A stretch of DNA of 64,000 nucleotides from Coleophoma eucalyptorum (Eukaryota > Ascomycota > Leotiomycetes > Helotiales > Dermateaceae): positions 310,001 to 374,000 of the forward strand of contig JALRME010000002.1 in the NCBI GenBank assembly GCA_026120035.1. Direction: 5' to 3'. This document shows, one piece after another, positions 7,599 to 56,505 of this stretch; position 1 is the stretch's first letter, and each line of letters opens with the position of its first letter. The notes below the pieces were generated by a model, which saw nothing but the letters and a program-made list of their open reading frames with translations, had not been told where the DNA came from and ran no database searches. Position numbers and translations under genes: made by a program.

Positions 7599-9219
7599 TC
7601 ACTCTGGGTCTCCATACTGCTCTTCAGCTGCGGCTGCAGCCTTCTCTTGCTCCTCAAATTCCTTCAGGGCAGCTTGGCCTTCCTCAGTTGTAGCATCAAT
7701 GATCTGCTCCTCGATGGATAACATTCCTCCCTTAGTTATAGTTAGTGTCTGTTGTGTTGGCTTTGGGAAGAATCATACCTCGCTAAGTTGTGCAACAATC
7801 TCTTCGGCCTGCTCCACACTCATCTTACCCAAGACCTTATTGACTTCATCTAACGAACCAGTTTCCAAGGCTCGTCGAAGCCCAGGTGGGAAAGCATTGA
7901 AAATTTCCCTAGCCTTTACCTGCTCAGGATCTTCACTGGTAGCTGGAGGGACCTGGATGTTGATCGTGGTACCTGGATCGACTGCATGAAGTTGGATTTG
8001 TTCAACTCCTCCGGAACCATCCGCCTCCTCACGAGCTCTCTGGGCTTCGATTTCCTTAGATCGAGATTTGATGCGAGCAAATGTTGAGTTGACATCGTCG
8101 AAAAAGACTTTCTGAGCTTGGTGGCCTTGGGTCGTGATACGTTTGAAAAATAATCCAACACCATCTCTACCACCAAGCGCTCTGCAGTATTGAAGTAGCA
8201 AGGCTTGATGAACACATTGTCTTGCGAAGTCATATTTTTCAGCAATGGCGCTATTGAAAGCCAACACCAACAAGCCGTCCGTCTCTCGCTCAGCAAGAAC
8301 CTCGGGATGCTGTGAAATGAACTGCAAGCAGGATTGGTAGTCGCCCATCTTGATTTGACCGAATTTCTTCCCAAGCTCGCTTGCCTCCACTTCAGCCTCA
8401 TCATCGTCGTCATCAAGTGGCTCGTCGACATCTGCATCCGCACCCGAAGACTGCTGGCCATCATCGTGGCCTTTGGTGAGTGCATGGGGGTTCAAGACCT
8501 CAACAGCTTGGACTTTTTCTGTCTTTTTAGGAGCTGGCTCAGCAGACTTTGATACATGAGAGCTGTCGAAACCAGTGTGCAATCCTTCGCTGGTGATCTT
8601 TCTACCCTCCTCTGCTTGCAATTTCTTCAATTCCTCCTCAAGCTTCAGTTGCAAGCCTTCTATCTTTGCCGCATGTTCCTTAACTTCCGCAACATATGCT
8701 TCATATTTGTTCTCTGGCTTATCCCCATCAACCTTAGTCTTAACCTGGTCAATGAGTACGGCCATCATTTTTGAATATGTAGGCAGCTCTGACTCCTGAG
8801 AGTGGACGCCTGCAGGTCTAGGTGGAGGATTGTCATCTCCAGCAGATTCCATGACTGCTTGAAACATAAGTTCATCTGGAGCACGCTTCTCAGCATCTGC
8901 CTTGTGTGATTGCAATGCCTCCAGGAGGCCATTGATTCGTTTCAGTAGCCCCTCATTGATGAGGCGTTCATATTTATAGGTCTCAATTTGATTCTTTCGT
9001 TGAGAACGTTCTTGGTGAATTTGGTTTTGCTTGGCTCGAATGAAAGACCTCTTGTCAACATTTGGGTGGACCTCGATGTCAGAGTCGTCGCTCAATTCAA
9101 GCGCATCCTATTTGCTTGTCAGCCTCGAGCTTCAGCCTGGTGGGATGGTGGGGATGTTGGAGGGGAAAGAAAAGGGTTTTTTGGTTCAGGCTTACCCATT
9201 TGCTGTAGTCGACCGGCAT
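7599..9219 (-). CDS. cdc37: Hsp90 co-chaperone Cdc37, 494 aa, three exons
   Basis: Exons on the minus strand are 9196-9219 (eight codons, MPVDYSKW), 7779-9107 and 7599-7730, totalling 495 codons. The join gives MPVDYSKWDALELSDDSDIE, the hallmark N-terminus whose Ser in the LSDDSD context is the CK2 site of this family and contacts kinase clients. HPNVDKRSFIRAKQ follows, then a long coiled coil. The Hsp90-binding domain includes LGKKFGQIKMGDYQSCLQFI, and a C-terminal helical domain ends in EEQEKAAAAAEEQYGDPE. Cdc37 delivers protein kinases to Hsp90. Without the tiny first exon the first in-frame Met (MSDDSD) lies inside the conserved motif and would truncate the protein. An acidic insert (DEPLDDDDDEAEVE) is near the middle. 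Confidence 0.95.
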
Positions 9220-14938: not shown

Positions 14939-16306
14939 TTGGGCTTCTAGTGCATAAAAATGCTCTGTATCAGCAAGTTATGTTGGATTTTGAAAGATAT
15001 TTATGTTGCGAACGAGCGGCGCAAAGAAATGTTGATGATGCTTTGGTGGTGAAGGGGGAGGAGCTGTACTCTTTAGCGGACAAGGCTGCATGCGGATGTG
15101 ATCAGGCGCTGAAACCCAAAGCCATGCTCCGCCCACCAGTTTGATGGGGGGAGAAAGTCGCCCCTCGCTTGTAAGCTGTGTTTATGCGACCCCCTATTTT
15201 GCAAGAATCATTTACATGGGACCTCCTTTTCCCTTGTTTTCTATATTTGTGCAGACTAAAGGTTAGATGCCCTTCTTGTATAGGTCTATCCTAGAGAAAC
15301 AAACTCACAACTGGACGTCGTGCAGCATTGAGAGTTGAGTCACGTGTACCGTTTTCTCTCTCTGACCTCAGTAGAGAGATTCTCCAGATACAGTGATGCA
15401 TTAATCCGGTTTTCATTCTTCTCAGCTTGACCAGTGATAACTCCTTCGCCTTCGACTTCCGAAATTCTTCTTTGGTCTTAACCTGGTGTTACAGAAAGAC
15501 CTTCACTCGCTAGCTCAAGATCAAATCGGATGAACCAGTAAAACCCGCGAGTTCCAATGAAAGAACTTCTCAAACGGCATAATACATTTCTCAATCTATC
15601 GTTGCCCAAAAATAGATAAATACCTTTCCAGGTACCTTGCACTATTGTAAACACTTCGATGTATCTTGTTTGCGCTATGAAAGACTTCGAGTCTTGACCA
15701 GTAAGTAGACGCACCACCACCAAGTGTCAAACTATAGATAACCCACAAATTCCAATATAAGGCAGCAACAATACAAAATCCTAAATGACTTTGACTATTA
15801 GTTTGGCAATATTACAACTTCTGAAGCCCTTTCGGCGAACTTAAAAAGGAGCGAAGTGTTAGTATATATGTTAAAAGTCTAATAATCATGTGATAGGCTT
15901 TGTTTGCACTCCAGGCGTCAGTCAAGTACTTAAGGCAGGACACTTATAGTCTGCCGCAATCAATAGCTTTTCAACTTACAAGTACACTTCAAACTCCATA
16001 TCCCTTTCCTTCAACAATATTAATATTAAATGGGTTTACACTTGAGATAGTTCAGATCCATAAAGTCGGCATTCTCACTCCTTCGACACAAAGACCACGT
16101 AAAGTTTATTTGTCCTTACGGGATACCAATCGAGCTCCAGTTAAGGAAAGATCCAGCCGAATTCGCACCCCCCCCCCCCAATCTGCATAATTGGCGCCTA
16201 ATGTTCGGCTTAATGACCACACCCACCACGATCGCACAGTTTAGGGATTCTTGTACTTTCTTATACGACCATAAGCAATTTTGAAACAACATCTGTTATA
16301 AGATTA
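14939..16306. other. Intergenic region, 1.37 kb
   Basis: Upstream of coronin (minus strand) and of the tRNA gene. It becomes AT-rich beyond about 15.7 kb and carries a C run near 16169-16178. No coding frame with family similarity was seen. Confidence 0.6.
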
Positions 16307-16343
16307 AGTCGTATGGTCTAATGGTTATGATATCTCGTTCACA

Positions 16344-16356
16344 CAATGAACATGAT
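16344..16356 (+). other. Canonical tRNA intron (13 nt)
   Basis: The segment between loop base 37 (A16343) and base 38 (C16357) is CAATGAACATGAT. Its removal leaves a 7-base anticodon loop TTCACAC closed by the 5-bp stem. This is the position cut by the tRNA splicing endonuclease. Confidence 0.8.
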
Positions 16357-16378
16357 CCGAGATGGTTCCGGGTTCGAT

Positions 16379-16433
16379 GTAAGCATTAAACATTCTCTAA
16401 TCCTCACAGAATTCGCACTAACAAACATATCAG
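16379..16433 (+). other. 55-nt GT...AG insertion in the T-loop, spliceosomal-intron-like
   Basis: It begins GTAAGC, contains CACTAAC (CTAAC at 16418-16422, 11 nt before the 3' end) and ends ATATCAG. These match donor, branch and acceptor signals of the protein-gene introns in this window. Excision restores T-loop TTCGATC and B-box GGTTCGATCCC, which the insertion otherwise cuts in two. Length is typical of local spliceosomal introns (about 45-100 nt). Confidence 0.75.
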
Positions 16434-16463
16434 CCCCGGTATGACTATTCTGTTAAACAGTTC

Positions 16464-16476
16464 TTTTTGATTTTTT
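16464..16476 (+). terminator. Pol III-type T-run terminator of the tRNA gene
   Basis: Runs of five (16464-16468) and six (16471-16476) T residues begin 16 nt after the discriminator base. A small inverted repeat CTGTT/AACAG (16450-16460) lies between. Confidence 0.65.
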
Positions 16477-17629
16477 GTCAGTCACCCAAGACACTTTTGA
16501 ACCTGTGGAAGTGGTGGGTCGAGATACTTTCTATCGTGTAGATGTGGGGGCGGGCGAGAAAGGGCGGCGGCCCCGCTTCCAAAACTCTCAAGTGATTCTG
16601 AAGTCATTGACTAATTGATAAACTGATAAAGTCAAGGTAAACTTGATAAGTGCTGCAGCCATCAGCCACTTGCTATTTTTTTATCGGCAACCTCTGACTC
16701 TATCATATAGACTATTCAAATAGGTTACACTGAGCTTGGAAGGAGCATTCGAAAATACAATTCTTTGTCTGAGTCTATACATGTCTTTTAAAGTTCAAAG
16801 CCGTTGAATGTTGCTTTGATTGCTATTCAACCATCTGGCTTGGCTACAATAGTATGACTTCTCGTACACGAAGGAGCATCTAGTTCTAGCACTAGGTACT
16901 TTTTAAAGTACTGCAGTGCTAAGAGTGCTATTGCTTTAGAAGCTCCAAGACTATATTGAAGCCCAGGCAAAAGAGGCCGCAAACTAGACCGAGAGTCCTA
17001 CGAGTTTTAAGGCTTCTTGGGGTGATATAAGAGGTTAAGGAGCAGGAAAAAGTGATTTTGGTGTTTCGATGGACAAGCAACGGTCATTAGAGCTACAGGA
17101 TTAAATGTACAGGAAATATCTATATCTTAAGGCATTCAGAGTGGGGGGTGCTAGTGCTGGGCGGCTTTAATTATAAGCTAAGGAGAGTGTTAGTAATGCG
17201 AAGGCTTGATCTGTTGAGACGAGGAGTTAGTTTTACGATCTCATGTACATTCGAGCTGAATTGTTTACTCAATTATCCTAGCACGAAGCTGTGCATATTT
17301 ATTTTGAATCAATATTGTTTGATATTTACCGATTCAGATTTTCCTAGGGTCATAAAAGCTAGCTCCTTGGCTTAAATTACTTACAAGACGGATATATTTA
17401 AAACTGGCACATTAGATACTGCACAATTCTGACCTTAGAGTATTGAGAAGCGAAGTTTTAGTGGCTAATATCTTATTTATATCAACAATATTATGTCCAG
17501 CTATCACTGAAAATCAAGCGATACTCCATAGACCAATAAATGTACGATGAAGGAGTGGCTATAAGCTGGACCTTTCTATGTCCTCTTCCCTTCTCAAATT
17601 ATCCTGTAACCCATGAATATTCCTAATGA
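16477..17629. other. Intergenic region, 1.15 kb
   Basis: AT-rich with scattered frames, none convincing. It could include eroded repeats, but no inverted ends or transposase motif is visible. It ends at the stop codon of the DUF3468-type gene. Confidence 0.55.
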
Positions 17630-20713: not shown

Positions 20714-23700
20714 ATGTCAGTCCAGTATGCATCCAGCGATTCTGAAGTTGACCGCCAGCGCGGGCCACCACCTCCCCTTGCCCCTAAACCAAAAAAGAAG
20801 AAGAAGCCTCTTCCACCTCAAGAGAGTATAAACAAGATCTGGTCCAAGTTTTCGGCTCCCAGATTCAGCAAGGCCACGGTCATTTTACCGACCACAGCAC
20901 CAGCTAAAAATGATCCGCCGACCTCGAAGACGCTCACCCCATCTCCTCCGCCAGACAATCTACTTGTGTCCGAGGATTTTGAAAGAGCTGTCTCAGAATG
21001 TCGGGCGAGAGTCAAGAAGCTCATCAAGGAGTGTAGGAGGGTAAATATGCGATATCGCGACCCTGACTTCGATATAGACTGGGATTTAAAATGGGGGAAA
21101 GGTTATTGTCTCAATAATCTTGACGAGACCAAGTTCGACATTTCAGGACACTCGTTCAAGAACCCACCCTCATCCGCACCGAAAGCTGTGAAAAGAGTGC
21201 ATGAAATTTTTGAGAAGCCTACCTTTATAAAAAGTAAAATTTCCCCAGCAGATGTTAAACAAGGTAAGCCATTTAAAGAACCTTGTGTTCTACTAGGGTA
21301 ACACCAATTCGATCCCACCTTTTGGATTTGGTTTGATCGATGCTTTGGCTAACATATCGCACAGGTCTCTTGGGGGACTGCTGGCTCATGGCAAGTCTCA
21401 CAGCTCTCGCGAATATGGAAGTTGGAATCCATCGCATCTGTGTTGAGTATGATACCAAGGTCGGAATTTATGGGTTCGTCTTCCATAGGGATGGCCAATG
21501 GATCATCTCCATTATTGATGATAAGCTGTATCTCAAATCACCTGATTGGGATTCCCCTTCGCACCAGAGAATTCTTCTGGAACAAATTGATCGAGAAGAC
21601 GTAGAAAAGGAGTATCGGAAAACTTATCAAACAGGTTCCCAGGCTTTGTTCTTTGCTCACTGTCGTGACCAGAATGAGACATGGCTGCCGCTTCTCGAGA
21701 AAGCATATGCTAAAGCCCATGGAGACTATGGTTCCTTACAAGGTGGTTGGATAGGGTAAGTTCCCTGGCAGTAATCCATAAGATAAATGTTAATTGGTTA
21801 CAGAGAGGGCGTCGAAGATCTCACGGGTGGTGTTACGACAGAGCTTCTAACATCAGATATTCTGGACACAGATGAGTTTTGGAATAATGAAATTCTAAAG
21901 GTGAATAAGGAGTTTCTATTTGGTTGTTCCACCGGACTACTCGATGGGGGCTACGGTAGCAGAGACGGGATTTCCGAAGGGCATGCATATGTAGTCATGG
22001 AGGCCCGAGAATTGTCGAATGGAACCCGACTATTAAAGCTTCGAAACCCATGGGGTAAGATCAAGAAAGGAAATTGGGAAGGCCCTTGGTCAGATGGAAG
22101 CAAGGAGTTTACACCTGAAGCCCAAAAAGAGCTGAACCACAAGTTTGGAAATGATAGCGTGTTTTGGATATCATATGAGGACCTGCTACGAAAATACCAG
22201 CATTTCGACCGAACACGATTATTCATGGACACCCCTGACTGGCGCCTGACCCAGAAGTGGATTAGTGTTGATGTACCATGGAAGGCTGAGTTCGAACAGA
22301 GGTTCCGGATTATCTTGAAGAAAGAGTCGCCGATTGTTCTGATGCTAAGTCAACTGGATGACCGATACTTCCAGGGGCTGGAAGGGCAATACAGCTATCG
22401 GTTGCAATTCAGGTTACACGAGGTTGACAGCCCTAGTGAAAATGACTACGTCCTGAGAAGTCATGGCAATTACCTGATGAACCGCAGTGTGGTCACAGAA
22501 CTCAGCAGTCTCCCAGCTGGCACTTACACGGTTTTCATCATGGTTGTAGCTGACCGCGATACCTCTTTGCCCTCTGTGGAGGATGTAGTGCGTAGGCAAT
22601 GTCGTAACAAAGACGATAATGACAAACTTTCTCAAGTGGGTGCTTCTTATAATCTTGCTCATAGCAAGGCTGCAGCGTATATGGAAGCGGTAACTGCAGC
22701 AAGAGCTTCTCAAGACAAGGCAAGGGCTAGAAAGACCCGAATCGCCCTAAGGAGAAAGAATTGGGAGGTAAGGCATATGAGTCGAGATTTAATGAGAAAG
22801 CAAGACAGGAAGAATTGCAAGAAACGCGAGGAGAAAGAAGCAAGGGATCAAGCCGAGGAAAAAGAGATACAGGAGAAGGAAGGAAAAGAAGCACAGGAGA
22901 AAGAGGATAAAATGCCTAAGGATCAGGGCGTCCAGACAGAGGGCCCAGGGGAAGTGATTTTTCAAAAAGAGGACAAGGCTGTGCAAACAGATTTACCTGC
23001 AAAAGATGAACAAATCACTCCACTTCCGCCTCTCACTGAAAAGGAGAAAGCAGTTCAAACTGAGAGCATGTCTGCATCAGTAACAGACCCAGGGACACCA
23101 GAAACCCCAAACTTCTCCGTTCCATCGCCGCCCTCTCTTCGAATGATGATCCCATACCCCGATCGCCACAACCGACACCAAAGTCCTCCTCGGAGCCCAG
23201 GCGACGCTCGCCGAACACACTATGGCAAAGAAACAACAAGGCGATATAGTCGCCGCGGCCCGCCACCACCGCCGACTCAGCAATACATCACCTCAGATGG
23301 CGAGTCTAGTGCTAGTCCAATATCAGATTTCGACAATATGTACAGTGATGATGACCCAACGCTGAAACCAAGGGTCACCCATGGAAACAATGGGAATGTA
23401 CCTCATGTATCAAAGTCGAAAAACCGTGACAGCGATGATGAGGATGAAGTAGACCCATGGAATTCAATTTGCATTGTTGGTTTTAAAGTTTACAGCAAAG
23501 ATGAAGGTCTAGAGCTGAAGGTAATCACGGACGGCATTGAATTGGCAGAAGTGAAAGCGCCTGGAAAGGAAGACGAAGAGGGCACAGATGCTGACATCGA
23601 GGATGCAGCCGAAAAGACAGGCCCAAAGAAAGGTGGTAACAAAGACGACAAGAAGATCGTTGAGACGTCAGATCAAGCCAAGATGAAAGCTGCTGAGGAG

Positions 23701-56126: not shown

Positions 56127-56490
56127 ATAGATGATTTATTTGGTTATTGGGTCTACATTGGTTTTAGGGGAATGGCTGGGTTGGATTGGGTTTGGATATA
56201 GATAATAAGTTGCCGTATAAAAAAAAGCATCGGACTACCTAGCTTAAAGTCTGCTATGGGAAATGAGATCTACGAGTGAGAACTAGCTATTTATTTGTTA
56301 CATGGATAGTATTACAAGTATCCTACAACACCCATCTAAAAACCCAGAAAATGCCACCATCAAACTCCAAATATTGCTACAGAAATTCTCGTACAGAACT
56401 CCCTCACTCACACTCAACTTCCCCACTCAACCACACCCCGGTACAGAAATTCTCGTACAGAACTCCCTCACTCACACTCAACTTCCCCAC
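56127..56490. other. Intergenic region between convergent genes, 364 bp
   Basis: Holds the 3' flanks of the DGAT1-type and Ste14 genes and most of a 64-bp tandem duplication. Confidence 0.6.
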
Positions 56491-56505
56491 TCAACCACAC
56501 CCCGG
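56378..56505. repeat. 64-bp perfect tandem duplication, two copies
   Basis: The unit starting TACAGAAATTCTCG and ending CCACACCCCGG occurs at 56378-56441 and again at 56442-56505. The second copy overlaps the last codons and stop of Ste14. The duplication is probably young because no mismatch is seen. Confidence 0.88.

Follow-up and report, generated by a model that had tools for sequence, protein, structure and literature searches.

Split nuclear tRNA genes in Coleophoma eucalyptorum suggest cutting by the spliceosome besides the usual tRNA enzyme

Introduction

Can a nuclear tRNA gene carry an intron of the kind that is removed from mRNA and still give rise to a tRNA? In eukaryotes, tRNA splicing is taught as a process separate from the spliceosome. 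The question is raised by a locus of the fungus Coleophoma eucalyptorum, located within a 64,000-nt stretch of contig JALRME010000002.1, the whole of which is termed the window here. A first-pass annotation, made from the letters of the window, described a tRNA-Val(CAC) gene whose T-loop is split by a segment with spliceosomal signals, and knew of no GT-AG intron described in a fungal nuclear tRNA. That statement is consistent with full-text literature searches in which, among the matches listed, none reported a nuclear tRNA gene with a GT-AG intron. Here, the anatomy of the gene, its relatives in the genome (45,259,943 bases, 45.3 Mb, in 101 contigs) and the manner in which its transcript might be processed were analyzed.

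Results

Anatomy of the tRNA-Val(CAC) gene

The gene lies at 16307-16447 on the forward strand, as do all of its parts given below, and both reading of the sequence and ARAGORN reveal a tRNA body that is interrupted twice. The first exon (16307-16343, nucleotides 1-37) comprises the 5' strand of the acceptor stem, the D arm and the anticodon CAC at nucleotides 34-36; it belongs to the tRNA-Val(cac) that ARAGORN calls after removal of 55 nt. An ordinary anticodon intron of 13 nt follows at 37/38 (16344-16356), recognized in the first-pass annotation and equally reported by ARAGORN. The second exon (16357-16378, nucleotides 38-59) provides the 3' strand of the anticodon stem, the variable loop, the 5' strand of the T stem and the T-loop letters TTCGAT. 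At this point, between nucleotides 59 and 60, a spliceosomal-type insert of 55 nt is located (16379-16433), starting with GTAAGC and ending with CAG; its presumed branch-point sequence ACTAAC occupies 16417-16422, and its CTAAC stops 11 nt short of the 3' splice site, exactly as had been described. The final exon (16434-16447, nucleotides 60-73) supplies C60 of the T-loop, the T-stem strand CCCGG, the acceptor 3' strand TATGACT and the discriminator A. The first downstream run of four or more T, TTTTT at 16464-16468, is the presumed Pol III terminator; it starts 16 nt after the tRNA, and a TTTTTT run comes next.

Deletion of the 55 nt leaves a tRNA of 73 nt with the T stem CCGGG/CCCGG, the loop TTCGATC, the discriminator A and the acceptor AGTCGTA/TATGACT, in which seven of seven positions are paired, one of them as G.U, so that dissection and ARAGORN both uphold the structure first proposed. 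The complete cloverleaf, the anticodon and the expected conserved bases are present after splicing. The checklist for these bases consisted of U8, the GG of the D-loop, U33, T54, T55, C56 and A58. The first-pass annotation had also suggested that a tRNA finder be run with and without 16379-16433: in the unspliced gene ARAGORN found no tRNA, even when introns could be as long as 200 nt, and after the deletion it called tRNA-Val(cac) with a 13-nt intron. Furthermore, both ends of the insert were shifted by up to 25 nt, which gave 2601 deletions, and ARAGORN was rerun on each. A tRNA was obtained from 28 of the 2601, and the sole GT..AG deletion among the 28 is the observed one. Folded by minimum energy alone, the spliced tRNA of 73 nt shows the cloverleaf only in part, and the unspliced gene folds no better than its shuffles (z 0.50; 135 of 200 shuffles fold as well).

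At default settings ARAGORN found no tRNA in the 64-kb window, and Rfam gave nothing there at gathering scores; for 15800-17000, searched at E ≤10, the only Rfam match was a weak and unrelated snoRNA, below its cut-off. A self-splicing group I or II intron was rejected as a candidate, as 54-57 nt is too short for such an intron, and the Val insert has no Rfam match in the window. When introns of up to 120 nt were allowed, ARAGORN proposed a tRNA-Met (21316-21497) containing an 89-nt "intron", a call that was taken as spurious. Elsewhere in the window, the Cdc37 gene (7773-9107, reverse strand) encodes a protein 97% identical to that of Coleophoma cylindrospora and 79% identical to that of Phlyctema vagabunda, and a perfect 64-nt tandem duplication is found at 56378-56505.

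Further split tRNA genes and the specificity of their detection

In an intron-deletion scan, each stretch of 35-120 nt that matches GTRNG..YAG and contains a CTRAY motif was deleted and ARAGORN was rerun. Across the window and loci L001-L123, nine of 1147 deletions yielded a tRNA, and these nine, found in overlapping loci, represent three genes: Val, Lys and Ser. A split Trp(CCA) gene was found later, outside that scan, by the same deletion test. When no signal other than GT..AG was demanded, the window gave a tRNA in two of 23,102 deletions (Val and one spurious Met) and the reversed window in two of 33,411; specificity is therefore given by the splice signals and not by ARAGORN alone. Chance resemblance or an error of assembly would be a serious concern for a single locus standing alone. 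Here, the split genes occupy four loci on four contigs, the deletion scan returned nothing from Markov sequence (0 of 1332), the reversed window (0 of 261) or reversed loci (0 of 928), and the full signal set gave 2 of 400,000 for random 55-mers, which together render such an origin exceedingly improbable.

The three further genes, at the least, are split by inserts of 54-57 nt with the same signals at other positions of the cloverleaf. Lys(UUU), on contig C11 near 590.3 kb (L062), carries a 54-nt insert at 9/10 and lacks an anticodon intron. Ser(GCU), on contig C14 near 610.3 kb (L113:2091-2242), has a 54-nt insert in the D-loop at 15/16 together with a 17-nt anticodon intron. Trp(CCA), near 259.4 kb on contig C46 (C46:259330-259560, L124), has a 57-nt insert at 53/54, the border of T stem and T-loop, together with a 12-nt anticodon intron. 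Thus an anticodon intron is present in three of the four split genes, and Val, Ser and Trp have two introns each. ARAGORN found none of the four before the insert was deleted. The label Glu(ctc) that it gave to the spliced Trp gene was rejected as a one-base shift, CCA being read from the loop CTCCA.

The patterns used to search the genome performed differently. A T-loop-intron pattern gave 14 matches, against 40 in the reversed control, and in the scan only the Val gene among them yielded a tRNA. A D-arm-intron pattern gave 16 matches against 83; these include the Lys gene, and one other overlaps an ordinary tRNA. It was luck that first revealed the Ser gene, which lies beside an unrelated D-arm match (L113); a later pattern (three matches against seven in the control) struck it directly. 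The Trp gene was struck at its acceptor end, again by luck, by a B-box pattern (two matches against four), and a Trp pattern returned 26 places against 20, two of which are Trp genes. The four split genes are thus a minimum and not a complete census, and, since two of the four were lucky finds, the existence of further ones is suggested. The genome-wide RF00005 search, with 62 matches, is clearly lossy, as nuclear genes for Leu, Phe, Tyr, His and Pro are all missing from the loci read, and absence from that list therefore carries no meaning. Two more pattern matches, C13:2679884 and C31:197851, show CTAAC..CAG followed by a tRNA-like motif. On contig C56 (128,081 bases) there is a dense cluster of many kinds of tRNA, which is probably the mitochondrial genome.

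Uninterrupted paralogues and the exact ends of the inserts

The boundary scan of 2601 shifted deletions was likewise applied to Lys, Ser and Trp, and in each there is one GT..AG solution, identical to the observed insert. With any ends allowed, a tRNA was given by 405 (Lys), 320 (Ser) and 213 (Trp) deletions; as so many deletions other than GT..AG also yield a tRNA, the tRNA model alone leaves the ends unfixed. In these three genes the ends are fixed by paralogues, the sequence of which is continuous across the insertion point. The body of the uninterrupted Lys paralogue (L088, C9:367.8 kb) is identical to that of the split gene at 74 of 74 positions and has a 10-nt anticodon intron. The Ser paralogue (L055) is uninterrupted and identical at 81 of 81 positions, with an anticodon intron of 20 nt versus 17. 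Two uninterrupted Trp paralogues, C7:590267 and C11:725973, read ATCCG and then directly TTCAAATC; over the 44 nt compared, from the anticodon to the T-loop, they differ from the split gene by three and two letters, all inside the anticodon intron. Between split gene and paralogue, flanks of 300 nt or shorter gave no blastn match at E ≤1 for either Lys or Ser.

A T-run is found downstream of all four genes and none inside the inserts. Runs of four or more T begin 16, 3, 2 and 17 nt downstream of Val, Lys, Ser and Trp, respectively, the one at Ser being a run of seven T. The anticodon loop of Lys itself holds TTTT, likewise in the intact Lys paralogue. These results bear on the possibility that each split tRNA lies inside a longer Pol II transcript, a lncRNA or UTR, to which the GT-AG intron would belong, the tRNA being a by-product if it is made at all. 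Such a reading would accord with the normal occurrence of spliceosomal introns in Pol II transcripts and with the partial cutting of the tRNA promoter boxes. Against it stand the T-runs downstream of each split gene and the ends of the introns, which in all four genes exactly restore a tRNA at four different places in the cloverleaf; the four loci were selected by this very restoration test, and for three of them the uninterrupted paralogues confirm the ends. We consider a Pol II host transcript very improbable, and return to the reading of the inserts as introns of the tRNA genes themselves.

Signals, composition and structure of the inserts

All four inserts start with GTAAGC (three) or GTAAGG (one), end with CAG and contain CTAAC 11-12 nt from the end, the distance being 11 nt in Val, Lys and Ser and 12 nt in Trp. 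In four of four, the 5' splice site and the branch sequence are like those of other introns in this genome and exact removal restores the tRNA, as for spliceosomal U2-type GT-AG introns. For comparison, coding introns were sought where open frames of at least 60 codons stand on both sides and a stop lies inside; 38 of 113 candidates passed a splice-signal score, a set chosen partly by its signals and surely containing false members, from which a strict subset of 20 was drawn. The median length of the 38 is 54 nt, and their commonest starts are GTAAGT (10) and GTAAGC (6); a branch motif lies 8-11 nt from the end in 20, and CTAAC occurs in half. It can be observed that the tRNA inserts resemble the coding introns of the genome in both signals and length.

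The inserts depart from the coding introns in composition and structure, by statistics that rest on four inserts. TTT is absent from four of four, compared with 11 of the 38 coding introns (hypergeometric p 0.012) and five of the strict 20. The longest T-run in each insert is two, and the difference in T content from coding introns is not significant (p 0.056). G amounts to 9% in each, with two G outside the splice motifs, which is poorer than in the 20 strict coding introns (p 0.006), one of which is as G-poor. Minimum free energy per nucleotide ranges from 0 to -0.025 (-0.005 kcal/mol for Val) versus a mean of -0.106 in the strict set (p 0.0004), the least structured member of which, at -0.022, overlaps the Trp insert. 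Few T-runs and little structure are as expected if T-runs stop Pol III and structure competes with the folding of the tRNA; a common origin could alternatively explain the shared composition.

No insert is a copy of another, and only the Lys/Ser pair of the six possible pairs exceeds shuffles (p 0.01, uncorrected). As to introner-like copies, a genome-wide DNA search with the Val gene returned only the gene itself, and no copy of any of the four inserts is present in the DNA of the window and the fetched loci. A stretch of 15 nt just upstream of a tRNA-Met (L023:1474-1488) is identical to part of the Ser insert (blastn-short E 0.012), probably by chance.

The positions 53/54 and 59/60, occupied in Trp and Val, are also sites of ectopic introns in archaea (PMC4090602), which invites the reading that the inserts are ectopic introns of archaeal or algal type, cut by the tRNA-splicing endonuclease at a bulge-helix-bulge (BHB). 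A strict BHB, with a 3-nt bulge, a 4-bp helix and a 3-nt bulge, is present in none of the four. In the strict geometry the central helix has two pairs in Val, one in Ser, two in Trp and two in Lys, of four, and the inserts are nearly unstructured. Moreover, a start of GTAAG, an end of CAG and CTAAC at 11-12 nt are common to all four inserts, and the tRNA endonuclease is not known to require such signals. Excision of the inserts by the endonuclease at a BHB is therefore highly doubtful, and a spliceosomal nature remains the preferred reading.

Search for a second Val(CAC) gene

A genome DNA search with the whole gene or its mature form, in which very common words were skipped, gave no match besides the gene itself. 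A pattern of the Val D arm, with up to three mismatches, matched 12 places, versus 10 in the control, and this gene is the only Val among them; eight share one other D arm, seven of those loci being Asp(gtc) according to ARAGORN, and the other three hold no tRNA recognizable by eye. A pattern from the anticodon to the B box gave 13 places versus nine, corresponding to Ser(AGA), Asp or, by eye, no tRNA. A pattern for an intronless Val(CAC) gave 25 places, known as counts without letters, versus 28 in the control. The outcome is thus "no second copy found" in a partial search, and not "single copy". GTG accounts for 27 of the 133 Val codons in four open frames, and the genome has two nuclear Val(UAC) genes. 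A Val(UAC) tRNA might read GTG by wobble.

Promoter elements and proposed processing

The internal promoter boxes are not all intact on reading of the sequence. Measured against the box consensus, the B box of Val retains the core GGTTCGA with its final CC displaced by the insert; the A box is cut by the insert in Ser, and is nearly whole in Lys because the CAG end of the Lys insert happens to supply the letters. Judged from these sequences, the disruption of the Val B box and the Ser A box should weaken the binding of TFIIIC. At the usual distance, Val and Lys lack a TATA-like hexamer; Ser has one (TATATA, approximately 37 nt upstream), as do 20 of 55 upstream regions of intact tRNA genes. 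Fungal and plant tRNA genes may rely on upstream TATA boxes (PMC3978253).

From the features above we infer that the split gene is transcribed, that its transcript is spliced by the spliceosome, that the steps have a definite order and that the product functions. Pol III, perhaps aided by AT-rich sequence upstream, would transcribe the split gene as far as the downstream T-run. An insert kept free of T-runs and of structure would allow Pol III to continue and the exons to meet. Subsequently, the spliceosome would remove the 55-nt intron in the nucleus, by which the T arm would be restored; only after this step could the tRNA fold and be processed by RNase P, RNase Z and the tRNA-splicing endonuclease, the last removing the 13-nt intron. 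The spliceosomal step would come first because these three enzymes require a folded tRNA body.

Discussion

The sequences of these split tRNAs suggest that they are cut by the spliceosome besides the usual tRNA enzyme. The first-pass annotation had supposed that one transcript may need two splicing machineries, and this is the reading best supported by the present sequence evidence. It extends to other loci: three more genes are split by inserts with these signals, and their paralogues, which lack the insert, show the GT..AG segment to be precisely the extra part. We regard it as probable that the locus represents a working nuclear gene for tRNA-Val(CAC) with an endonuclease intron at 37/38 and a spliceosomal intron in the T-loop, belonging to a class of at least four genes. 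With somewhat less assurance, though still on the favorable side, we propose that nuclear tRNA genes of this fungus have been colonized by spliceosomal introns at many cloverleaf positions, that their tRNAs arise only when the spliceosome and the endonuclease act consecutively on the transcripts, and that Val(CAC), if single-copy, depends on this.

The alternative that most deserves weight is that the split genes are dead copies, in which an intron or an intron-like element has inactivated one member of a family while the rest of the family works. The uninterrupted paralogues of Lys, Ser and Trp mean that the split copies could be dispensable, the insert interrupts an internal promoter box in Val and in Ser, and tRNA genes of eukaryotes with such insertions are generally regarded as pseudogenes (PMC4090602). 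There is, on the other hand, no damage in the four tRNA bodies; those of Lys and Ser are identical to the intact copy even though the anticodon introns differ and the flanks are unmatched. A recent insertion would leave the tRNA body intact too. Moreover, each insert has a full set of splice signals, with T-runs and structure avoided, and no intact copy of Val(CAC) was found in the partial search. Weighing these points, we judge inactivation rather unlikely, and functional genes with spliceosomal introns are the reading carried forward.

If the genes are expressed, the spliceosome acts on pre-tRNAs, and two splicing systems work sequentially on one short molecule. If this is true, tRNA finders that allow introns only in the anticodon loop miss real eukaryotic tRNA genes, and, should Val(CAC) really be single-copy, the supply of a tRNA is coupled to mRNA splicing. 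Furthermore, the four loci make both the sites of spliceosomal intron gain and the openness of Pol III transcripts to the spliceosome directly testable.

In introner elements and fungal intron gain, several introns of like size appear at new sites. The four inserts are similar to these in their sizes and new sites, and differ in not being mutual copies. In archaea, in Cyanidioschyzon merolae and in nucleomorphs, tRNA genes are interrupted within the D or T arm, in some cases by two or three introns (PMC4090602, PMC3978253). The archaeal ectopic sites include 53/54 and 59/60, as in Trp and Val here. The non-canonical introns of archaea and C. merolae have BHB motifs and are cut by the tRNA endonuclease, and the Guillardia theta nucleomorph has introns of 3-24 nt, with a mechanism that is not established (PMC4090602, PMC3978253). 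In contrast to the BHB-based introns of archaea and C. merolae, the present inserts have GT-AG signals and no strict BHB. The review by Yoshihisa regards eukaryotic non-canonical tRNA introns as supposedly rare, names nucleomorphs and C. merolae, and takes most other insertions in the D or T arm as pseudogenes; the string "spliceosom" does not occur in it (PMC4090602). The description of tRNAscan-SE 2.0 has noncanonical introns sought in archaeal tRNAs and eukaryotic genes limited to one intron (PMC8450103), whereas Val, Ser and Trp here have two.

Among the closest precedents are the ectopic spliceosomal introns in the nuclear rDNA of lichen fungi, for example one of 57 bp in Cladonia grayi; yeast spliced one lichen rDNA intron (57 bp) out of rRNA (PMC8527467). 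Those introns are like the present ones in being short, of similar length and placed in a fungal structural RNA, and differ in that they interrupt a Pol I transcript of repeated rDNA, whereas single tRNA genes are interrupted here. U6 is a precedent for spliceosomal introns in Pol III RNAs; for tRNA genes, none was found among the papers listed. The U6 snRNA gene of Schizosaccharomyces pombe has an mRNA-type intron that the spliceosome removes (PMC8917221, PMC10484740), and, like the inserts described here, it is a short mRNA-type intron in a Pol III transcript. U6 is itself a component of the spliceosome, with its intron near the catalytic nucleotides, which a tRNA is not; a tRNA, unlike U6, must form a cloverleaf, and three of the four split tRNA genes carry an anticodon intron as well.
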